Shown one piece after another: positions 222 to 62,300 of a stretch of 64,000 nt of DNA. This DNA is from Sycon ciliatum (Eukaryota; Porifera; Calcarea; Leucosolenida; Sycettidae). The translations under genes and the position numbers were made by a program. Numbering within the stretch: the first letter of the stretch is position 1; the number at the start of each line of letters is the position of its first letter. Below the pieces are notes generated by a model. It did not search any database and had not been told where the DNA came from. It worked only from the letters and a program-made list of their open reading frames with translations. The stretch is taken from contig NC_088643.1 of NCBI RefSeq assembly GCF_964019385.1, positions 48,044,193 through 48,108,192 on the forward strand. Direction: 5' to 3'.

Positions 222-14577
<14,356 letters not shown>

Positions 14578-16351: not shown

Positions 16352-16880
16352 ATGTACCACACGCACGCAAGCACACGCACAGACACACACACACACACAC
16401 ACACACACACAACCAGCAGAGGAGGAAACTACATGTACTGGCGAGTGTTGATGGACATTGACTGCTAGTGGAGTCTGGATGTACGCGGTGTGCAAGAAGA
16501 CTAGGAGGCAGCCGCGTTAGATGAGAAGTAGTTGTAGAAGTAGCAAGAGTCCATGATCCCCAGCGGGATTATGGGCTCTTGCCTTGGTAGTAGTATTAGT
16601 AGAGTTGAAGGAGAAGAGCAGATTGAAAACAGGATAAGAGATGTCACAGGCATAGCTACATGTATAATAGATTAACACAGCGAAATACAGGCCAGATGAA
16701 CATGCGCAGCTAGGATGATGATGAAACACAAAGCAAAGACGGAGGAGAATGATTCTAAGATGTCCTGTAGGTAGAGTCTCCACTGATGGATACAAGCGAC
16801 TACAAGCAGAGTTGCAGGGAGCGGATGAGATAGGGTTAAGTACGACAAAAGAAGAAAGGACATGCTCACACGCAAGCATG

Positions 16881-18417: not shown

Positions 18418-18770
18418 TTATGCCGTGCTATCAGGAGTAGAGAGGTCGACAACAAAAGTTCGTACTTTGAAGTGAGATTTGACCGTTACGGCCTGGAGTA
18501 ACGAAAATTCGTACAACATTCGTCAACTTTCGACGGAAAAGAGCTCAACAGCATCTATGTTCCTTGCAATTACCGTATTGTCACGAGGTCATAGATGACC
18601 CTACATACCGTCACACACTTGGAGGGTGCATGTCTGACTGTCAACAATTATTTCCTGCAGTCGAGGAAAAACTTCAAGTTCCCACTGTTGTGCAAGCTCT
18701 GAATCAACTCGGACTTGCGTAGATTCTTTCGTTGCCGCCTGATACGTCGAACGCTACGGAATTTAGTATC

Positions 18771-18806
18771 AAGAGTACATAACCTCCCAAGAGTGTGTTA
18801 CTCAGG
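18771..18806. mobile_element. AAGAGT micro-hairpin element, member 3
   Basis: CAAGAGTACATAACCTCCC followed by AAGAGTGTGTTACTC aligns closely with the 10881 copy. A half-site in reverse orientation (GAGTTACACACTCTTG) lies at 19380-19395. The surrounding 18415-19064 holds no gene that I can see. Confidence 0.5.
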
Positions 18807-19064
18807 ATACCCCTTCTATAGGGTCTACCAACGGCGAAAACTCACATCACATGGTGCAGTGTTGTGCGTTCCCAGCCAGTTTTTAGCCAGCAGTGGAGTA
18901 GTAAATAGCACTCCCTGACAGAAACCCATCCAGCTACATGTCTATGTGAGTCATCAGCTTGATCATGGCAGATATTTGGATTGCGCGCACGCCGGCCGTC
19001 GTTGTACATAGTGCGAAATGTCTTGGATCACGTCATGTGAGTTTTCACCGCCGGAGACCTCATA

Positions 19065-19373
19065 CCGTATGTCCGCACCTATAAAGCCATGGAAGGATAT
19101 TCGATTACAAAGCCAGTCTCAGTAATAAAGCCAGGGGCTTCATAAATGAAATGACATTTGAAGTATCTTTTGTAAAAAATGAAGGAATAAGTATTATACT
19201 AACAAACTTACAGCCCAGCAGGAAGGGTGGACAAGTGGATCTAGATTGAAATTTCTGTGTGGACTTTGACTTTTATGGCATGGTGTAGTGGGCGAGTCAT
19301 TTTGCATCAAATAGCTAGGAAAGCAGCGGTGTTTCGAATATAAAGTCATGGCTTTACAGGCGCTGACATACGG
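19065..19373. mobile_element. CCGTA-type MITE, 309 bp, AAAGCC motifs
   Basis: TA flanks at 19063-19064 and 19374-19375. The left end is CCGTATGTCCGCACCTATAA and the right end, reverse-complemented, is CCGTATGTCAGCGCCTGTAA; both continue into AGCCATG. The interior has ACAAAGCCAG and ATAAAGCCAGG. Architecture is as at 12701 and 13604. Confidence 0.83.
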
Positions 19374-19375
19374 TA

Positions 19376-20379
19376 TGCAGAGTTACACACTCTTGAGAGC
19401 TTATTTACTTTTGGTAGTACATGTGTGCGCAACCTCTCTAGTTTTAAGCCTGCCGTTTAAGCGACATTACGGTCAGAGAGATACAAGAAGAGACGTCCAG
19501 TATGGATTCACTAACCATCATGGTGCTAGGCTGTCATCGTCATCATTCATCAATGCACGTCTTGACGCTGCTCACTATTTCTGAAACAGCATCCTGCATG
19601 GACAGCCAAGAGAGAAGGGAATTGTTAAACTCACACACTCACAATATGCGCACAGTTATTTAAAGCAATAGGTATATCCTGGCGTGTGAATACAGTGTCC
19701 AGAAGTCAGAGCACAGCAGATCTGCACAGGGTAGCGGTGAAAACTGCACTGCACGTCCAAGGAATCTGATGCTATTGATGACATCAATTCGCAGCACCAG
19801 GTCATCTGTTATAGCGCAGTGAAACTTCAGAACCACCAAAGGACACGTAAATCAGGAATGAACATTAATATTTGTTAACTCCACGGTTCGCGCGAGACTC
19901 GGTTCAACCAAATTTTCCGCATCCGTAGGAACGCCACCACCCTCAAGGATCAAGGTGCAGACGCAGCTCCTAAAGCGGTGGATGGAACAGTATCCGACGA
20001 AAAGAACACGTTTGTTTAGAATCACAAAATCCGCTTTTAAGTTCGTGTACCTTCTCCGTTCGCGAACAGGAAAGCAAACTTTTGCATTTCTCGTCCCAAA
20101 AAAGGAGTCAGCACACAAAGCATGGATTCGTCCCAGGACAGTCATAAATTTACTACGTTGTACTGTCGATACATGTGCACAACCTGTCAACACCATGGGA
20201 GTGCAAATTCTGTTTGCTGGCCCTCTACGAAATGGAAAATTCGTCACCGAGCTCAACTTTCCTTGGTGTGCGAACCAGAACACGAAATTCGCCTTGCTAA
20301 ACCTCCAAGTCCGAGGTATCGAGTATACAGAACTAGCATCGCACAACAAGCTCACCTATCTTGATAAACTACAACTTAC
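19376..20379. other. No supported gene; overlapping open frames on both strands
   Basis: Open frames of about 167 codons occur on both strands between 19852 and 20455. I recognise neither product, and an antisense pair of similar length is more like a repeat than a gene. Composition is unremarkable. Confidence 0.35.
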
Positions 20380-24284: not shown

Positions 24285-27200
24285 ACACGTGCGCACACAC
24301 ACGGATGCAAATGCGCACGTGTACACACAACACATGCGAGAGACACACCATGAGAGTCCGAGATACGCTCACAGAAAAATGGCACACAAGAGAATCTGCG
24401 AAATCATTCAGCCCTGGGTTGGCTCAATCTAATGCCCGGTATAGCATGCACAGGTAACTGTGATCAGTAAGCTTTTTACTAAGTTTTCAGTAGTGTACAT
24501 TCCCACTCACGGGCACATGGTTTCCACTGATCAGTCGGCAACATGGTCTACAAAGTACAAGTGATCTACTTCAAACTTGCAACTTGACTTCAGCTTGCAA
24601 GCGAGGCATATGCCGGTCATGGATTACAAGAACTGTCATCAGCAGCAAATGTGACTGGCAGGTAGTCAAGTCAAATGTGTTGAACTCCATAGTGCTACTT
24701 ACAACACGGTCCATTGCGCAAAGAGATACAGCAATGCTTTGCACCGACACAGGAATTACGCAAGGTGCAACAACGACACCCAACGTGTGCAAAGCAAGCT
24801 CACGCGTAACAGGACTATAGGATAGTTGCAAAAAGCAACGTTTCACGCTGCTCGCACCATGAGTCCAGCACAATAACGTACGGTCTATCTCATTGTTCTG
24901 AACTTTGCACAGCTGCATGGCATGTTAAAAGTTTGACCACTGCACTTGGTGCAATTCACAAATTTCTGCTAGTGCGACAATCAACACACTTTCCCGCCAG
25001 GAAGCTGGAAAACACTGACAGGCAACTAAGAGTGATGCTTCGTATGCTTGAGCGCGTACTAATAATTGCCGGCACGCATATCTCACATAACTAGTTCATA
25101 ATATGCCTCAGGGTGGCCAACAAGACTCTTTCACTGTTTCTCTCACCCCCCCCCCCCCCCCCCCCCCTCTCTCTCCATACGAGTATACCCCAGAAACATT
25201 CTATTCAGACATACCAATGCTGACTGTGTGAGTGTGCGGTGCACTAATCAGAAACATTCTATTCAGACATACCAATGCTGACTGTGTGAGTGTGCGGTGC
25301 ACTAATCAGAAACATTCTATTCAGACATACCAACGCTGACTGTGTGCGTGTGCGGTGCACTAATAGAGCCGGCAGGGGAGCTCAGACGCTTTCCAAGCAC
25401 ATTACAGCTTGTAGTCGCTGCAAAGTGATAAAGGCAAGCACACCAGCAGCCAAATATTTATCACGGACACATAAACAATAAACATTGAAGTCCCTGGGAC
25501 CATTACTAGCATGCCAATTTACGTGTCAGTTTTGAAGGGGGGGGGGGGGGGGGGGGGAGTGTGTCAGTCCTCTATGTATTATTTTGCTTGGGCATCGCAT
25601 AGAATGAAACTTGAGTTGCAAGCGAAACCTGGTTCAGCATTCTTTGTAAGGAAGTTCTATCCATTGTGGTGTTGAGCTCCATGGGGACAGATGGATAATT
25701 CCACTATGTGTCTCTTGTTCTTAACTGGCTAGTAAGAACACGTCATAAACTGTGAGTAGACTTGCACATATATGCACTGGGTCCTTCATGCCCAACTACT
25801 GTAGAAGTGAATGCTTTGAGAGCTGTAGAGGTGATCGGTGGTATCAGTACATGGACAAACAGACTTCGCCCTATCCTACGACTACATTAGATGCATTGAC
25901 CTTGCCAAATACATCAGGCACTAAACTGTCATTAACCGACTAACTCAAAAGATGCACATGCACGTGCACGTGCACACACACACACTTCAGTACACACTTC
26001 ACAGGGGCGTAGCACCCGCTACGACTGGTACGACCATGGCCGTACCACTTTTCGAAAAGTGCGGTCCGTCCGGAACGTGCAAAACCGTAATAAAAAAAAT
26101 CAGGATCCATCAATGCATATGCGCAGACTTTGACCTTTTTCTAGACTCGTACTCGTAGATCTGTTGTGCATCTGCAGTCGTACTGAGTACTGTATACATG
26201 TACTCGACTGCGCACTGCGCCAGAAGTAACCCAGAACGCAGGATTTTGTGTCTTTTTTACAAAAATTTCCCGGGGGCGGACCCCCTCCAACACGGCCTTC
26301 GGTCGTACCACTTCCAAAACCCCTCCTACGCCCCTGCTTCAGTACACACACACACACACACACACACAATCGGGACCCACTCGTTTACCTTACCTGAGCT
26401 ACTGACTTGGACATGGTGGGTGTGCGGAGCAGTTTGCTGTTTTAGAATTCTTCTGCTGACACCGTTGACAGAATCAGCGCATGCTGAAATGGTACCGGAA
26501 ATGACACAATGACAAAAAAGAGCGAGCAGATTGTACATGTGCAATTGGACAGTGGCTACTGTTCCTACACCGCCTAATATGTCTCCCCTGGAAACCGGAT
26601 TGTGGGAACGCGGGGGGTCAACGATATTAAGAGAGTTACTACATGCACCGTAACATGTTTACGGTGCATGTAGTAACTCTCCAGATGGTCCAACTCCACA
26701 TAAACCCCTGCCATGCTATCATTCTCTGAATAGCATTATACATTTTCGTGATGTAATGACTGTGCACAAAGCCTCATGGCGTATGGCCCACCTCGCATCT
26801 CCAAGGCCTGCTTAGAGTAGGTTAACATTAGGCATTTGTACACTCTCTGGGCCAGGGAGTAGTAAAATACATAAACACCGTTTAGTAGTAAAAATGCAGT
26901 ATGTACTTTACGCCTTAAAAACCTATTACTGTAAAGCGACAAACTTTCGCGGCGAACAAATTTAGCATTTTCATAAATTGGGCTGGTTTACGATGAGAAA
27001 CTTTTGCGATTCTATCTCTTCAGTCGGATCTTGTACTGTCTACAATCAATGTACAGAGGGGTTTGCGGCGATTTATATTCGCGAATGTGTGATGGTCGTG
27101 AAAATAGCGAAATTTAATCTCTAGCGAAAGTTTCTCGCTTTACAGTATATAAATATTGAAAGAAAATAGTGAGCGCACTCATACCACGACACCCATTGAA

Positions 27201-29019: not shown

Positions 29020-29742
29020 TGCAAGAAAATAATATTTTTGAAAGGTCAGGAGATGAACGTGGCCTCACTCGCCGAATGCTGCTTGGCAACGTGGCCCTCT
29101 ACAGTATAGTAAAGATGGAGTGTTGCATCTGCATTCCGATTGTGGAAACAGGCAGTCAACTCGGGAGGCTCTCACATCAAAACATCCTGAACTGCCCAGC
29201 TATGCCCTTTCCTCCCGCAGGCCGGCCTGAACTGAAGCAAGACAGGGTACTAGTATTTACAAGGAAGGTTCTTTTTGCTTTCAGGTGCACTCTAGACTCT
29301 TGTGCCACTGTACTACATGTGTAGACGTCTCACGACCGACCGTGAACCATCGACCATGTGCACATGTGAGATGACAAATCAGTTTTTTTTGTCACAGTGT
29401 GTACACGTTGACGGGATTGCATATATCGGGCGACTGCAGAGCAGAGATCACGCATGCACGCAGGGATCTAGGGCCAAGGCTACAGCTCAGGGCCAGGGTA
29501 CTAGGGTGTACTCTGACCTCTGAACTTTGTGAGCCCTGTATATACGGCTATATGCTTATACGGCCATACATGTATTACAGTGTATTATAATTATTTTGAA
29601 ATTAATTTGAAATTTCTCACTTTTACTTATTATTATTATTATTAAAAAGCTTCCGTGGAGATAAAAATGTAATCAACGCAATAAATAGAGTAAGCTTTAG
29701 ATCAGATCAGATCAGATCATTTACATTTGTAGATCAGTAGTT

Positions 29743-29768
29743 CCAAGAGTCCATAACCCCCCTCTTGG
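29743..29768. mobile_element. AAGAGT micro-hairpin element with 5-bp duplication
   Basis: A 26-bp unit beginning CCAAGAGTCCATAACC and ending CCCTCTTGG. It is flanked by a perfect direct repeat TAGTT (29738-29742 and 29769-29773). Same core as 35632-35670. Confidence 0.68.
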
Positions 29769-30230
29769 TAGTTCTCGTTTGTGGTTGCATGGTAACTTTC
29801 TAGTGGTGAATTTATCGCATCTGTTGTCACCTGATATCGTTGAATGGTGTAATGTTTCTTCAGCTCTCATTTTATCGCGCTAGTTAGGGTCTAAATTATT
29901 ACTTGCATTGTGCGTATATATATTGAGTTAAGAGCTTTTGTTGATTTGCCAGTAATCCTCTGATGAGATGGCGACGAAAAAGTTTAGGAACAAGCTTCTT
30001 TATTTACATGAAAACAAGTTTTGCTTATGGTGTTTGTACTGAGTGCGCAGCTTACTCTATTTATAGCGTTGATTATTATTATTATTTAAATTTTGAATAA
30101 ATAGAAAAGGCCGTTATTACCATGGCAACCTAACTAGAATTTCTCCTATAATATAGCCTATATCCATTTCTACTGACACGTACGTACATGTATATGGCCA
30201 AGTAGCACCTCATTTTGCAACATACTAGTA

Positions 30231-34506: not shown

Positions 34507-34830
34507 ATGGTTGATAAATATGGTGGTAAAGACACACCTGGCAATATGGCGGTAAACACACGCCTGCCCACACACGCTCTCTAGGCTGCAAAGTTCTGGC
34601 ACAGAGCTCTCCTTCTCACCACCACCACCATCAGTTCGCGCCTGGCGCCTGGTCGATGCATGGCTACCGCCAGCCATGCATCGACCAGGCGCCAGGCGCG
34701 AACTGATGGTGGTGGTGGTGAGAAGGAGAGCTCTGTGCCAGAACTTTGCAGCCTAGAGAGCGTGTGTGGGCAGGCGTGTGCTTACCGCCATATTGCCAGG
34801 TGTGTCTTTACCACCATATTCATCAACTAT
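34507..34830. repeat. Near-perfect 159-bp-arm inverted repeat (hairpin)
   Basis: Arms 34507-34665 and 34672-34830 are complementary apart from a few mismatches near the outer ends, with a 6-nt loop (34666-34671, ACCGCC). The arms include CACCACCACCACCATCAG and its complement. A transcript would fold into a long double-stranded hairpin. It may be a fold-back transposon or an inverted duplication. Confidence 0.92.
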
Positions 34831-35062: not shown

Positions 35063-35865
35063 TGCTCTTCAGGCACAATCTTCCTCAGCCTACTCAAGCT
35101 CAACTGATGAGGGGTGAATTCCCCGAAACACTGTGCATTGAGCAGGGCCCAGGAGTGGCGCTTTCTTGCAGGTTTGCCGAGTCGAAGGTTCGATGGACTT
35201 CTCGTGTTCTCTGGATGGCAGTCATGAGTCTAGTCAGTCAAGTGTCAAGTCGTCGGCGGAATAGCGCGAGCTCCAGTGTGGGAGCAAACCCATTCCTAAA
35301 TAATATATACAATGTTACACACGTAACATGTCCATTCGTGCAAAACTCCTTCTGCAAGTAACGTTAGACTGTTGTCATTTTGTGGCACAGCTATTGTAGC
35401 TGCACGTAGAACTAGAAAAAGGTGGCCGCTCCAAACGTTTGAGCTCGCGCTTCCTAGATCCTGCCGACTGACCGACAGACACTCGACTGACTCGCGACTG
35501 CGTCTGGAGCACACGAGAAGAAGGCCGAGCCGCCCACTCGGCAAACCTGCAAGAAAGCACGACTCCCTGCTCAAACGATGCTCTTCAGGCACAATCTTCC
35601 TCAGCCTACTCGAGTCAAGTAATTAGTTCAACCAAGAGTACATAACGGCCCGGTGGGTTATGACTCTTGGTTCAACTGATGAGGGGTGAATTCCCCGAAA
35701 CACTGTGTGTAGAGCAGAGCAGAGAGCAGTACTTTCTTGCAGATTTGCCAAGTACTAGTAGACGGATCAGCCTTCTCGTGTGTTCCAGACGGCAGTCAAG
35801 TGTGTCAGTCAGTCAGTCGGCAGGAAGCGCGAGCCCCAATGTTTGGAGCGGCCACCTCCTGGCTC
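35063..35865. repeat. Three copies of a 165-290-bp repeat, one inverted
   Basis: Copy 1 (35063-35280, plus) and copy 3 (35577-35865, plus) both begin TGCTCTTCAGGCACAATCTT and share GAGGGGTGAATTCCCCGAAA. Copy 2 (35412-35576) is the reverse complement of the later part (CTTTCTTGCAGGTTTGCCGA to GGAGCGGCCACCT) and abuts copy 3 head to head. Copy 3 is interrupted by the micro-hairpin at 35632-35670. The Ser/Arg-rich frames here show no known domain. Confidence 0.82.
35632..35670. mobile_element. AAGAGT micro-hairpin inserted in a repeat, 5-bp duplication
   Basis: Thirty-nine bp: CCAAGAGTACATAAC, spacer, GTTATGACTCTTGG. It is flanked by TTCAA direct repeats (35627-35631 and 35671-35675). The sister repeat at 35063 has continuous sequence (CCTACTCAAGCTCAACTGATGA) without the hairpin, close to an empty site. 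Confidence 0.75.
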
Positions 35866-39249: not shown

Positions 39250-42200
39250 ACTTCAACACCTTTAAATTAATAGTAGCAATACGAAGATACATGTAGTTTT
39301 GCAGCATGGTTTGAATCGGCCTCATACAATCTGACTCCCTGGTTTGAATCACAATCGTTCTACAAAACAGCATTATTAGTCCTACAGGACTGAAGATAAC
39401 ATACATGTACATGTACATGCAAGGGAAGGCTTACCATGGCCAGCACGGTCATGATGCATACATGAACGTGCCCGAGTCCTCCAGCCTGAGTGGTCTCTGT
39501 ACTGGAAACGGAGCCCATGGTTCTGAGTAGGAAAACACTCGGTCTGTGGGCTAGCAATATTCCAATTGAACACGGTGACCTCTGTCTTGAATGGAAGGAC
39601 TTCCTTGATTGCTAGGCGAGACCGAGTATTTAGCTTCACGTCACATACTCTTATAGTACAGTACATTGTACTGGGAAGTTAAATAGATATGGTGGAGGTG
39701 GAATTGCTCTACTTGGAAGCACCATTTGAATCCAATCTGGGCACTAAACCCTGCGATTGCCAGTTACCCTGCACTTACCCTGCACTTACCCTCAGGCTGC
39801 TCATTCTCTGCTCATTCTGGTGAAGTTTTGAAGTGGGTGTGATGTTGTTTAGAGGAAAGAGGGCTTTTGCGGTCACCCATCTTGCATTCCAAAGGCGAGT
39901 TGTTTGCCAGTGAGTTTTGGAGAACCCACTAGTAGACTAGCAGCAGCAAGGCTCAGGCGGTAGCATGTTTGGCTGTGAGCAGGTACATGTACATGTAGTC
40001 ATGTAGTCATGTAGCTGTATAGGTCCTGTGTACAACTTCCTCGGGCTATGGGCGAGCACCACAGTGACAGCCTGGGACTCTACCCGTACATTGCATGCCA
40101 CCCTCATGTAATGTGGAAAAGTGATTGGAATACCCGGTCTGACTGAACTCGATCTACAACATGTCATGGTCATGCATGTCTTTGTGAAGCATTTGGATGC
40201 ATTGCAATTTACATGTATATCTTTTAAAATGCATGCACCGGTATACATGTACACCCTAGTCAATGCAGCACTTAACGTAAGGATCGACGGGAAGCGACGG
40301 GACAGTCTGACGGCGTCCAATGTGAGCACCAGGAACGGGAACGCAACCGTACTGCCGTACGGATTGGGAAGCGACGGGAAGAGTAGGATCGATTCAACTC
40401 TTCATACCGTAGACGGGCGTAGACGTGGACGCAAGCGTATAAAACAGCTGCATTTTGAGTGTGAACAGGAGACGGCGTCATGTGCCGACTACTCCCGATT
40501 CGTACTTGGAGCACTGTGCTTCCCATGGTAACTCGCAGAATGGCTAACACGACTTGAGTTGAAGTTTAGCAAGATAAGGTCTGATGTCACATATGGTATT
40601 TAGGGATCAGGAGCGTGACAGACGAACTGTTTTATCATTTCCTGGAGCTATTATTTGAATGGCACACCTTTCGAAGCTACTTTTTCGGTCTTCATGAAAA
40701 ACTGGTATTGTGAACTTGATTCCGCTTCATTCAAGGAGAAATAATTGAAAAGAAGTCCATAAAAACAGGGAATTAGGTCCAAAAGTCACCCCCGTCATAG
40801 ACCGTGATATGACTCGCGCCGTTCGCTGTTGAACGACGCAACGACTGCAGCATGTCGTGTCGTACGAATCGTACAAGATTTTAAAGCTCACCCCGGCCTT
40901 CCCGACAGGCCCTTACGTCCCGTACCGTCAGCGTTCCATCGAATGTGAACTAGGCTTTACTAGTACATACTTTCTGCCCTTGTAGGCTGCCACAGTAGTC
41001 GCACATGGTCGTTTGATCCATGATCCATGATCCACACACACACAAAACCCCAACGGTTCCTGCTAAATACCTGGTTTTCAACTTCAGAATTTCTTCTTCA
41101 CAAGACACTGCCTGTCACGGTGGCAAACCATTTCAATGGTGCCGTTACACAATTACCATGCCTTGCTCTGTCAGTGATAGGCATGGTGGAGACACGTTCG
41201 TATACTTTTGGAAAGGTGTTGACTTGCTGGTCCCAGTGGCGTTCAGTGAATGTGTATTCCAGAATGCAGGGAGGGCGGTACATGTATATGGGCTGTTGTG
41301 GTTAAATCCACCATACGGTCAGGGCATTGCCTTCCCATACACACTGAAATTCACCATATGGTCAGGGCATTGCCTTCCTATACACCAACCTACTCCACAT
41401 TGGGTGGGTGGCATTCCATACAGTGCGAATATTTGACGAAGCCAATTACGAATCAAAACTACAAGTAGTATACTATATTACTTGTAGTTTTGATTCCTAA
41501 TTGGCTTCGTCAAAGCACGCCTTTCACCGGGCCAGTGACAATCAGTGCAGCCGCATGATTGCCGACCACGTGGCCACAGCATTGTATGCACGTTCTGTTT
41601 CTCTCTGTGTTGTTTCTCCAGCAGGTGTTGGATACACGGGAGGTGGAGAATTGAGCCTGCACTACTGCTGAGGTCAGCTACACGGAACACTGGTGCACAT
41701 GCCGCACTCAATGACAAGCAGTAAGTCCACACATTCTTTATGCTGGTCCAGACACGGGCAATTATGTTATTAACTTACATGTACATGTAGATGGAGAGCA
41801 GTTCAGCACCCATGTGACATGTACATGTATGCCCGAAGGCCCAGCTGCCCAATGGTACGTCGATGGGTGAGCTGTTTTATTGCCGCGAGTCCCAACTCCA
41901 GTTTCCGTACATGTACAGAATGTTAGGGTAGGGGCTGCATCTGCCGCTGTGGGCTGTGTCTGGGATATTCCGGGTGTTGGTGACCGTCGTCGTGAGTTCC
42001 CTCCAGGCCGGACCGGGGACGAAATCTAAAGTCGAATGGGAACTGTTAGGGATGCAACGGAGATTTGATCATTCGAATCATTCCATTTGATCCAACAGTA
42101 CTCCAAGAATACTTGAATGCAAAATTCAAGAAATGTCCAATGGCAGAAAATTTCCCCTAGATCGGGTACACGAAAAGACAAAGTCAGACTGTGACAACGA

Positions 42201-57455: not shown

Positions 57456-59366
57456 TACAGTGTATAACTAGACCTTACTGTGGCACTATTGACTATTGAC
57501 TATTGTAATTTGAGTACTGTACAAGCAGAAATATTCGTCTGGAATTTAATTTCGTCTTTTTCGTCCAAGGAGCTGTTGGACTAAATTAAATGCCGGACTA
57601 ATATTGATTTGTCCAGCTTTTCCATACACTCTTATGATCCATGGACGAAATTTACAACCGGACGAACTCCCTTTCTTTGGAGTTGGACGAAATTATTGAC
57701 CGACGAAATTTTCTGCTTATACAGTATTATGCCTTTCTTGTGCGTTTCTTGTGTGTGCTGTCGTCTACATGTACACGTACACGTATCAGCAAGAGTATAG
57801 AAGCCCCTTATAATTATACTCTTGGTATTAGTATCAATGACGTACACGTATTGCGTATTGACGGTACATGTACATGACTGAGTGATTGTACTTCAAGTAC
57901 ATGTATCATACTTAACCTGGTCAACTGCACTGGTACACACTACTAAGTACAGTTGTAGTGCAGTAACAATACTGTCTGGTCTACTTTTTAAACTAATAAT
58001 TGTTCAGATGATGCCAATCCATGACAAACACTTTCAAGTACAGGTCTAGCATGATGAGGAGCTAGACCATGTCAGTGGGTTCCTTTGAGTTTGAGTTTGA
58101 TATCATTATGGCCAGTGCCCATGTAGTGTGTGCCGCCTCTCTCCACTGTATACATGTACATGTACATGTATACATGTACATGTACATGTATACGTATACA
58201 TGTACATGTACATGTATACAGTACTAGTAGTAGTAGTAGTAGTAGCACACCAGACTATAAAGGTGGGACCGGCATCCATAACTAGTACTGTGGTAGACTA
58301 ACGGGGACAAAGTAGGTGAACATGCAATACGTCTCCCCCTCCCCCCCCCCCCCTTGGGGAAATTTTCTATTGTCGACAAATTCCATGCAACACTTTTTTG
58401 CACAGAATGGAAGGGATCCTGCATGGACAATTTGCACTGTCAGGTCAGTGGGGGAAAAGCCACTACACCTGCCTGTGAACAAGAACTCGATGCAAAGAGC
58501 TGGACTGGTTCTACTGCTGGCACGAACATTCCTTTGTTGATATGGGGCAGGGCAAGGTGCTCTGGAATGTGCATGTAATAGGTTATCCTGTTTGTGTTTA
58601 TGTATGTACATTTGCTGGATGTTCCCAATATAGAACAATTTGTTTTGTTGACTGTTACAACCCTCAGGATGTTGAGATGTGAAGACTACATGAAAAAAAG
58701 ACAGGTTGATGGATAGAGAGAGAGAGGGGGGGGGGGGGGGGGGTATACATGTGTCATGTACATGTACATGTATATGCGTGTACTGGTATTCATACTCATC
58801 CTAACAAAGATAGTATTAAAGGTGATATGTTTGCAACAGAAATTGGCTAGGTCAATCACTGTGCAATACGTTGAGCAGGGTTTTGATGAATCAATGGGTT
58901 GATTTACATTGTATGTGTATTGAGATGTCATGTACATGTATGGTGGTGATGTTTCCAAATCAACCCTGGGAAATACGGGGGAGAAGGCAACAACACCGTA
59001 CATAATTTGCCAGCATGTTGCATAGTTGTAACACCAGTGTTGTGGCAATACAGTGATAAGTAGTATATATAATTTTAATTCAATCCAGGTAGGGCATCTG
59101 GGGAACAATGTGATTGTGATGCAATTTAAAACTCCCGTTGCCCAAGCCACTGCATTACGCCTCTCGTGACGACTGCATAGAAACTGCTAGCATTGTCCAT
59201 GATACGCAAAAGGCAATGTCTGCTGCGTGTACATGAATACTAGCATTGTCTTCATGAGCGTACTGCTCAGTGCTCTTCTCTTCAGCATGTTGCACACATG
59301 TCACACATGTTGTCTTACCTCTCAATGCATCATTATTGACCCAATGTGCTTTTTTGTGTGCAACAG
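57456..59366. other. No confident gene; TACATG arrays and G/C homopolymers
   Basis: Holds a (TACATG)n cluster at 58148-58218 with internal palindromes, a C homopolymer at 58336-58352, a G homopolymer at 58727-58742, and a diverged unit with GGACGAAATT words (57540-57720). A 38-nt exon-like stretch at 58406-58443 does not fit the phase of its neighbours. Confidence 0.4.
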
Positions 59367-62300
59367 AATGGCCTTTCCACAAGCAACACTTGCATGAATA
59401 TGCCAGTTCAAGAAGGTTGGTCTCATACAGCCAGACAGGACGGTTTCACTGATGTGGACGCTGTGGACACACAGGTACAGGTAAGGACTTGCTGGAGAAC
59501 AGATTTTTGCAATGTTTTAGTCTCATGATGGCTACATGTACAAGCAATTGTGGTGACAACACAATATTACAGTGCGTATCGGTTTTAATGTGGTCGTGTA
59601 AAATAATATACTTCCTCCGCGTCATCGAAATTGTCGCAGTTTGACTAGTGACTTGTCACTTGTTACTGACAACTCCATAAGCTAAACCATCAGAAAAATA
59701 TTACACAGTATGATAGTCTGAAGTCTAGAGTAACGTTCCAGGACAGTTGGACTGAGAGTTTCACGCAGACATGAAGGCCTCGTCGTCGCTGGTGTCAATG
59801 GATGAAAAATATCGTTCCGCAAAATTTCCAGGAATGTTGTAAGTTGGTCGCGCCTCATCTCAAACGCTTTGACTTTCTCCACAGGACAATAGCTGCTATG
59901 TTTGTCGTCTGCTAGCTCTGGATGATTTCTACATCACCACCATCGAAATAAGAATGCACAATCATTGCGAGGTCGGTTGATTACCGTCGGCGGAATCACC
60001 TCGATCTTGAAACGAACTTTTTTTAGCCGCATTCATTTAACTGTGTGGTCACTGCTCATGCAGGTCAGTCTACTATCACGCCGAGCGCGCACCCTTTTTC
60101 AGCATCACTGGCACGGTACCTGCGCGTGCATCACTAGCATTGTACGTAGCTACATGTATAGAGTCTACACGGCTCTTGCAGGTGCACGTACTGAGTGCCT
60201 CAGCATTCTTTGCATGAATGCAAGAGCGACACTTTTTCCGCTCTTGGATGCATTTAGTTTGCTGACCCCTCAATGTTTCTCCAATCGCTGCCCCTTGTTC
60301 CACGAAGTCATTTTCACCCCACCTCGGGTAAAACAGTGATGAGTTTTTGAGTGAATGGCTATAAAAAGCACGAGAAATGTGCAGGCTGCAACGCCTGACT
60401 GATCTCAGCGAGTCGAAGGTACCATCGCAGCGACATCAGCGAAGAAATTGTGTCTAGTTCAAAAATCTTCCAATAACAGAAAATAGAACTTTGCCATCAC
60501 CCTATACTGATGACTATCGCCTATGTCTAGGGTCCAGCGGATAATGCTCCGAAAATGTTCGTATAATGCTAACCATAATGCTCCAAAAACTGCCTTAAAA
60601 CGCTGATTATAATGCTTCAGCAAGGGATATAATGCTCTTGGTTTGGGACAAAATGGAAGAAAGTCTGCACATTGTCAAACTTCCAGGAAATTATGCTTAT
60701 CGTGGATCTGCCTCTGAAGCTGGCACATTATCTCCAACGAGCTCCACCACTTCTTAGCACTATGAATCATGATCACTTCTCCATTGGCTGCTCTCCATTC
60801 CAACTTTGATGCAGGGTTGTGGCAGAATAGTCGGTGTATCAAATCTTCCCCTAATTATCCATGTAGTGAGAGATGAAATCATTTTTGCAGGTAGTCATTC
60901 ATTGTTGGGATGAAGTTTATCCTGGCCAATAGTATTCCTGCCTGCAGACAAGCTGTCACTGCTTCCACTCTGCAAATAGTGTCTTCATCTGAAACACCAG
61001 ACGGGAGGCCAGCTCCTGAGAGCCGATCTCTGATCGACATCATTTGCGGAAATCCTGAAAACACGTGGTCAGAAGTTATTTTGCCATTCTACATCTTTTG
61101 CTTGTGCTCTCATATTCTCCTCGAGATGGTGTGTAGAGGTATTGTTTGCCTCTTCCCAAGTTCTGATAGCTTTTGACTGTAGGCCTGGCATTACAACCGT
61201 CGACCATAACTAACTGTACGTGCTTCATCAGGAAAGTAAGACACGCGCTGCTGAGCGCTCCAATCGACTTGGTACGGAGTCCATGAGTAATTCTAGTTCT
61301 TTTCCAGGCTCTTACATGTAGGTCCTGAGCTGGACTCGGCAAAGGCAGTTGTTTTGGAGCAAGCTCTTTCTCTCTATAGACGCTCCTTTATCCTGGTCCA
61401 AATTTATCAAGGCATCAATGTCTACTTCAGCATCCCTAGAGATGCTATCGCCAGAGCCTATGGCACAACGAGAAAACTCTTCTTCGTTCACTTTGCGTAT
61501 GTCTCCTCCATTGCTCTCCATTATTCTAAAAGAAACCTCATACCGGTAAATCATTTCTCCGGATTTGTGTAACTGCCTCGGTTGGCCATGCTTCATAAAT
61601 GGCTTGTAGCCCTGACCACATCGCTACATAACCAGATAACGTGTTTTATGTAGCAATGACTGATTATGTGGCCAAGTAAATGTACACGACATAGCATTAG
61701 TGCTAAAGGTGTTACGTGTCTACACAATCACAAAGTCATGTGCCCGTAGACCTGCAATGCATAAGGTCTGGTTGCACCTCATGATCATGATTGTAGCCGA
61801 TTGTGGCCAAAAACCTAGGATTTGCCGATGTTATCCACTATGAAACTCGTTATGCCGCTCAAACCTCACACAATGCTCGTTTCGTTCCTTTCTAATGCTC
61901 CATAATGCTCTGATGCTCGGGTAGTCTTATAATGCCGAATATAATGCCGAATATAATGCCGGCATTATCCGCTGGACCCTACCTATGTCCGATTCCTTAC
62001 CTGTGGTACAACTGCTGGTGACTAAATCCCCCGTTTTATATCAAAAGTCAAACTGCGACAATTTCGATGACGCGGAGGAAGTACTGCCTACAAGAATGAA
62101 CTCTCATATTTTCACAATCATAACATGGGCTTCAACTTTCAAGTGAACATGTATTCTTACCAGCAATATTATCGTATAATAGAACATTATCGGCCCTAAG
62201 AATGGACTTTGGGCAGCAAATATGCCACATTAGTGTAAAGTGTATACTCGTCTGTAGTAATAACATCTGCCTGGTGCAGCTCTGAACCGATTTGCATCAC

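Follow-up and report, generated by a model that had tools for sequence, protein, structure and literature searches.

Probable excision products of P-type transposons

Excision of the Drosophila P element leaves 17-nt 3′ tails, as PMC7776569 and PMC2895639 describe. The excision products reported in PMC2895639 combine a duplication of 8 bp with at most 17 nt of either terminal inverted repeat (TIR) and are joined through microhomology or filler. Galileo, another Drosophila member of the P superfamily, is described as making 7-bp duplications with the consensus GTANTAC (PMC4168063). A comparison of DNA transposons between Asian and African rice examines how active transposons are in different genomes and also refers to excision footprints (PMC4423477).

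The short hairpins of the calcareous sponge Sycon ciliatum have the same order of parts as the Drosophila P footprints in those accounts, namely a TIR tip and an inverted TIR tip, joined through filler or microhomology, with the duplication on either side (PMC2895639, PMC7776569). They differ in that the duplication is 7 bp instead of 8 bp, and in that the arm limit lies at about nt 20 in the one subfamily measured here, compared with 17 nt. The Drosophila scars described are assay products, whereas those in S. ciliatum are natural and lie in the genome. The 7-bp GTANTAC duplication is common to Galileo and the sponge family (PMC4168063). Galileo TIRs are reported to be long and internally repetitive (PMC3573991), whereas here only the outermost tens of end bases are compared. 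The rice study likewise concerns transposon activity and footprints, but in a comparison of plant species (PMC4423477). A limited literature search found no description of P-type footprints as a genomic repeat class.

The micro-hairpins are very probably (about 0.94) excision footprints of a P-superfamily cut-and-paste family with a Galileo-like target and of its non-autonomous derivatives, and not mobile elements in their own right. The mechanism is already known; the hairpins represent a large natural archive of scars.

Hairpins and repeat ends in the window

The window is the whole stretch of S. ciliatum DNA that was analysed, 64,000 nucleotides in length. Exact matches to AAGAGTNCATAAC lie at 10886, 18771, 29745, and 35634, and six matches are found when up to one mismatch is allowed, against 0.38 expected. 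The copy at 16543 is AAGAGTCCATGAT, with two mismatches to the core. A first-pass annotation of the window had listed the core at five places as micro-hairpins. Four of these are exact and that at 16543 is approximate. Among the five, short hairpins that end in CTCTTG are found only at 16544-16581, 29744-29767, and 35633-35669. At 10886 and 18771 the core runs on as CAAGAGTWCATAACCYCCCAAGAGTGTG or into AAGAGTGTG, and this sequence suggests that each copy is one TIR end of a longer element.

Short pairs with exact CAAGAG and CTCTTG arms number five in the window, against 0.45 expected (16544-16581, 29744-29767, 35633-35669, 57790-57824, and 60221-60246). A looser scan, with one mismatch per arm and a length of up to 110 bp, yields 11 hairpins against 4 to 17 across 20 shuffles, and exact arms were used instead. 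Three CAAGA...TCTTG pairs have abutting 7-bp repeats (29744-29767, 35633-35669, and 57790-57824). The features are as follows.

35633..35669, no strand: read as an excision footprint of 37 bp, CAAGAGTACATAAC + GGCCCGGTGG + GTTATGACTCTTG; arms are the genome-wide TIR, the 7-bp duplication is perfect, and the paralogous repeats read are without the hairpin
35626..35632, no strand: left target-site duplication GTTCAAC, flanking the 35633-35669 footprint
35670..35676, no strand: right target-site duplication GTTCAAC, flanking the 35633-35669 footprint
29744..29767, no strand: read as an excision footprint of 24 bp; one arm is kept up to the C-run and the other is trimmed to CTCTTG
29737..29743, no strand: left target-site duplication GTAGTTC, flanking the 29744-29767 footprint
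29768..29774, no strand: right target-site duplication GTAGTTC, flanking the 29744-29767 footprint
57790..57824, no strand: probable footprint; its arms (CAAGAGTATA...TATACTCTTG) would belong to a related TIR variant
16544..16581, no strand: probable footprint, then CCTTG; duplication at an offset only
10885..10918, plus strand: apparently one TIR end (CAAGAGTTCATAACCCCCAAGAGTGTGCAACTCC) of a longer element rather than a micro-hairpin; second end not found
18770..19413, no strand: probable non-autonomous element of the CAAGAG TIR family, with ends CAAGAGTACATAACCTCCCAAGAGTGTG and, on the other side, CAAAAGTAAATAAGCTCTCAAGAGTGTG; ends paired by eye

The duplication of the 57790-57824 hairpin consists of GTATCAG (57783-57789) and GTATTAG (57825-57831), a 6/7 match. 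At 16544-16581, GAAGTAG (16537-16543) and GTAGTAG (16587-16593) also agree at 6/7, with a 5-base offset, by eye and with no control. An abutting duplication was not found at 60221-60246, which may be a chance pair. The flanks of the 18770..19413 element, TTAGTAT and GTAGTAC, agree at 5/7. A longer hairpin at 11316-11384 has 22-bp arms that are 86% complementary, CAAGAG-like, and accompanied by a C-run; no 7-bp duplication was seen around it by eye.

The terminal inverted repeat across the genome

The genome searched comprises 538,412,230 bases in 313 contigs. It contains 11,837 copies of AAGAGTNCATAAC (6,393 + 5,444), compared with 41 (13 + 28) of the reversed control. The core CAAGAGTNCATAACCCC represents the TIR of a family of P-superfamily transposons. 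The TIR end runs on as CAAGAGTNCATAACCCCCAAGAGTGTGCAAC, and the core followed by N0-8 and the inner TIR AGAGTGTG has 4,594 exact matches (2,327 + 2,267) and none in the control. Many of the first 100 core matches listed belong to inverted pairs about 240-340 bp apart. Thirty loci taken from the listed core matches include 16 candidate MITE pairs 100-1,200 bp apart, with 7-bp duplications that are exact in five, 6/7 in six, and 3/7 or less in five.

The palindrome was also scanned for outside this genome. The viral_contigs set gave five stretches, which were examined, and none is tied to the CAAGAG family. The genome_contigs set gave 19 stretches against about seven by a rough chance estimate, which may be some excess over chance; judged by title, none is tied to the family.

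Parent elements and transposase

PF21787, a TNP-like RNase H domain, is matched 44 times in the genome and is not matched in any of 14 control genomes. The element at C1:87400980-87406965 is 5,986 bp long, has 34 identical bases at each end starting CAAGAGTCCATAACCC, and is flanked by the perfect duplication GTAGGAG. It contains an 840-aa ORF with TNP-like_RNaseH_N (PF21787, E=4.1e-11). A second TIR variant, CAAGAGTACATAACTACACAAGAGTGTGCAACTCC (…TACACAAGAGTGTG, TACAC), bounds C1:67740860-67746940 and C10:24936406-24942519, each of about 6.1 kb. Both span a PF21787 match by coordinate and have 7/7 duplications. The longer TACAC pairs show a 7/7 duplication in 4/4 tested, and of the short TACAC end pairs, L179 has 7/7 and L178 only 5/7. 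Hairpins with the same TACAC ends lie at 28 places (27 + 27 strand-hits, none in the control), and this subfamily of scars matches the elements that span the transposase domain. The parent elements are placed in the P superfamily by the P-type RNase H domain of the transposase, which lies between CAAGAG-family TIRs. The 7-bp duplications also fit the 7 or 8 bp, with a palindromic GT...AC target, that are expected of this superfamily.

THAP and GTP-binding domains are features of P transposase. Neither is reported by Pfam at E<=1 among the five ORFs scanned, and RNaseH_C is seen only in L130, a distant paralog for which no ends were found. Against solved proteins (PDB set), the transposase has no sequence match at E<=0.001 as a single sequence or at E<=0.01 as a five-sequence profile. 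The first fifteen P-transposase loci have no ends within flanks of about 1.5 kb. Besides the 5,986-bp element, six P-domain stretches that were read longer have no end pair with a 7-bp duplication: L130 and L131 have no matching ends, L132+L134 and L136 have one matching end, L137 has none but a nearby hairpin, and L138 has none. A PF21787 fragment (E=1.3e-4) lies about 4 kb beyond the window at C1:48112304-48112513, and the 6 kb read around it (L138) contain no CAAGAG-family end pair.

Duplications around the short hairpins

The pattern CAAGAGTNCATAACN{0,30}CTCTTG gives 3,046 strand-hits genome-wide (1,498 + 1,548), and the control gives none. The canonical sample is the first 100 of these, all on contig C1 within its first ~19 Mb, and corresponds to 71 distinct places with 64 distinct sequences. 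By rough extrapolation from these 71 places to the 3,046 strand-hits, about two thousand natural P-type scars would be present in one genome, beside the 4,594 longer TIR ends.

Flanks were scored at 64 of the 71 places, excluding six that were not fetched and one in L031, where the right-hand repeat is displaced. An abutting 7-bp duplication is exact at 30/64 and agrees at 6/7 or better at 45/64. Removal of L106 and L115, which have repeated flanks, leaves 62 flank-distinct sites, for which the expectation is derived from mismatched flank pairs. The exact 7-bp duplication is found at 29/62 of these against 0.34 expected, and a duplication of at least 6/7 at 44/62 against 1.62 expected. Exact repeats of 5, 6, 8, 9, or 10 bp occur at 0/62 sites, and exact 4-bp repeats at 2/62 against 1.02 expected. 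The target consensus, on both strands of the 44 sites at 6/7 or better, is GTANTAC.

These values change the duplication length given in the first-pass annotation, which had described 5-bp direct repeats, TAGTT and TTCAA, and named a sharp genome-wide 5-bp peak as supporting evidence. The duplications are real: GTAGTTC and GTTCAAC contain TAGTT and TTCAA as their five inner bases. Their length is 7 bp once the hairpins are bounded as CAAGAG...CTCTTG; it was read as 5 bp because the last C and the first G of the duplication were counted as element. The sample has a sharp peak at 7 bp, and the lack of a 5-bp excess, which had been named as evidence against the mobile-element reading, is literally what is seen at these bounds. 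With the earlier bounds, CCAAG...CTTGG, an exact 5-bp repeat is found at 12/62 sites, as expected where a 7-bp duplication starts with G and ends with C.

An abutting duplication of at least 6/7 is absent from 18/62 sites, and this counts against the footprint reading. Ten of the 18 have an exact 7-mer at most 21 bases away on each side, a count made with no control. Seven of the ten are judged convincing (L078, L083, L093, L096, L107, L121, and L122); in these the 7-mer is shifted by 4-17 bases, apparently additional remnants of the TIR. Duplications around no more than the outermost ~17-20 nt of the two TIRs, as expected of P-type footprints, are present in the majority, with exceptions.

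Arms and junctions

Each arm is identical to the TIR inward from the tip until roughly where the C-run ends, a length of ~17-20 nt that is rarely exceeded. At least two of the 71 canonical hairpins pass the C-run into the inner TIR, C1:13452493 (to AGAG) and C1:17014100 (much further). The junctions are diverse. Hairpin centres are empty, trimmed with overlap, or filled with a few bases, and sometimes contain a copy of an arm; the centre at C1:8801874 repeats the 17-nt tip. The variable TIR base 8 is identical between the arms at all 55 places with arms of 9 nt or more on both sides, as expected if both arms derive from one element. Since the two joined tips are inverted copies of each other, the scar forms a hairpin.

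The TACAC sample comes from several contigs and was selected for both arms reaching nt 19, and it informs the upper arm limit only. Of its 28 places, 24 were fetched and 22 fitted the pattern; two hairpins with longer centres (L182 and L183) bring the scored set to 24. Two fetched places lie outside this set: the double palindrome of L154, which is longer, and L158, where a single end base differs and GTAATAG stands on both sides. The duplication in the 24 scored hairpins is 7/7 in 20, 6/7 in three, and 4/7 in one, and the left 7-mers are distinct at 23/24. Compared with the parental end, 33/48 arms end at nt 20, 15/48 at nt 19, and 0 beyond. The commonest scar is a 39-bp near-perfect palindrome with a 20+19 joint, present at 12/24 sites with different targets.

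Empty sites and probable repeated use of targets

A search with the surroundings of 35633-35669 gave 71 matches among the 40 of 142 candidates that were scored. Of these matches, none but that of the window itself extends across the scar, and the others cover one side or the other. The eight loci read contain 15 copies of the repeat core, one of which is scarred. None of the other 14 has a hairpin; 13 have a single GCTCAAC at the target and one has unrelated upstream sequence. The first-pass annotation had noted that the copy at 35632 interrupts a repeat whose sister at 35063 is without the hairpin, and the empty paralogous copies bear this out.

A repeat at 35103-35143 and 35675-35715 has the core CTGATGAGGGGTGAATTCCCCGAAAC, which is presumably hammerhead-ribozyme-like. 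In several other copies this core is surrounded by GCTCAAC...GTTGAGC. The repeat has about 40 genome matches, three of them at 478-bp spacing on C9, and no Rfam match at the gathering threshold.

An equally wide class with gaps of 31-61 gives 437 strand-hits (209 + 228), with none in the control. The first 100 of these represent 78 distinct places, and 22/78 are two neighbouring ends facing across 3-25 bp. The spacer between these adjacent scars is exactly 7 bp in 16/22. In L074, L093, and L116, one 7-mer occurs in three copies around two scars. The simplest reading is that a second element inserted into, and was then excised from, one target.

Proposed mechanism and alternative origins

In the proposed mechanism, insertion would duplicate a 7-bp target of the GTANTAC type. 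At excision, the transposase would cut one strand well inside each TIR, and each flank would retain a long 3′ single-stranded TIR tail. The two identical inverted tails would then be joined end to end, either directly or with trimming or small insertions (templated or filler). The product would be duplication, TIR tip, junction, inverted TIR tip, and duplication. The arm lengths suggest a cut stagger of about 20 nt in the TACAC subfamily. The hairpins that pass the C-run, the 5/7 duplication of L178, the five MITE pairs at 3/7 or less, and the missing PDB match count against the footprint reading. Repair is likely to have been by end joining, and excision is likely to have happened in the germline of this lineage. 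The scar set could show how often elements leave and where the transposase cuts, as well as which targets are reused (neighbours spaced by 7 bp) and how identical inverted 3′ tails are end-joined. Programs that find hairpins or MITEs may miscount such scars as tiny elements.

It is very improbable that some scars, above all the 39-bp TACAC palindrome, were themselves cut and re-inserted by the transposase. If this were true, they would be, to our knowledge, the smallest mobile DNA elements. The recurrence of the 39-bp palindrome is explained here by its being a simple 20+19 joint.

A broader form of this idea, close to that of the first-pass annotation, is that the hairpins in general are mobile micro-MITEs of 20-45 bp moved in trans by the P-type transposase. 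The 7-bp duplications and empty paralogous copies agree with it, as does the identical 39-bp palindrome at different TACAC targets, and the hairpins are indeed products of transposition; movement as 26-40 bp elements is what is not supported. The centres mostly differ, with 64 distinct sequences at 71 places. Two repeated pairs have common flanks (L105/L106 and L114/L115), and the remaining repeats are simple joints. Many copies of one internal sequence at different targets, as expected of a MITE, are not found, except for the 39-bp TACAC scar. The arms also stop at a fixed TIR depth, and the inner TIR is nearly absent, whereas Drosophila P is described as having internal transposase binding sites (PMC7776569). 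This origin is very improbable, because the hairpins are the outermost ~17-20 nt of a P-type TIR joined variably, and because longer elements share that TIR and the 7-bp duplications.

It is extremely unlikely that the hairpins are internal-deletion derivatives of longer MITEs, produced by abortive gap repair and grading down to tiny sizes. The inner TIR is present at 7/78 of the places with gaps of 31-61 and in L120, as such a series would predict. Over the gaps counted (up to 61), however, numbers fall steeply, from 3,046 at gaps of 0-30 to 437 at 31-61, and 22 of the 78 longer-gap places turn out to be neighbouring hairpins in pairs. Random internal deletions would not be expected to stop at TIR position 19-20. 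The excision-footprint reading accommodates the limit through the cut inside each TIR.

Functional RNA hairpins, terminators, or chance palindromes would also be inverted repeats, and other palindromes are numerous in the window, but this origin is extremely unlikely given control patterns of 0, 7-bp duplications that it leaves unexplained, and no Rfam family at the gathering threshold in the window.

Other features of the window

No tRNA genes were found in the window. A near-perfect 324-bp palindrome at 34507-34830 has 159-bp arms that are 98% complementary and a 6-nt loop, and is a candidate foldback element. Long hairpins at 41432-41514 (41-bp arms, 95%) and 26631-26681 (23-bp arms, 100%) have no obvious relation to the CAAGAG family. 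An ORF at 6880-8181 matches zf-RVT weakly (E=1.1e-5; 26.4 bits, slightly short of the 27.5-bit cut-off) and is perhaps the end of a LINE-type retrotransposon.
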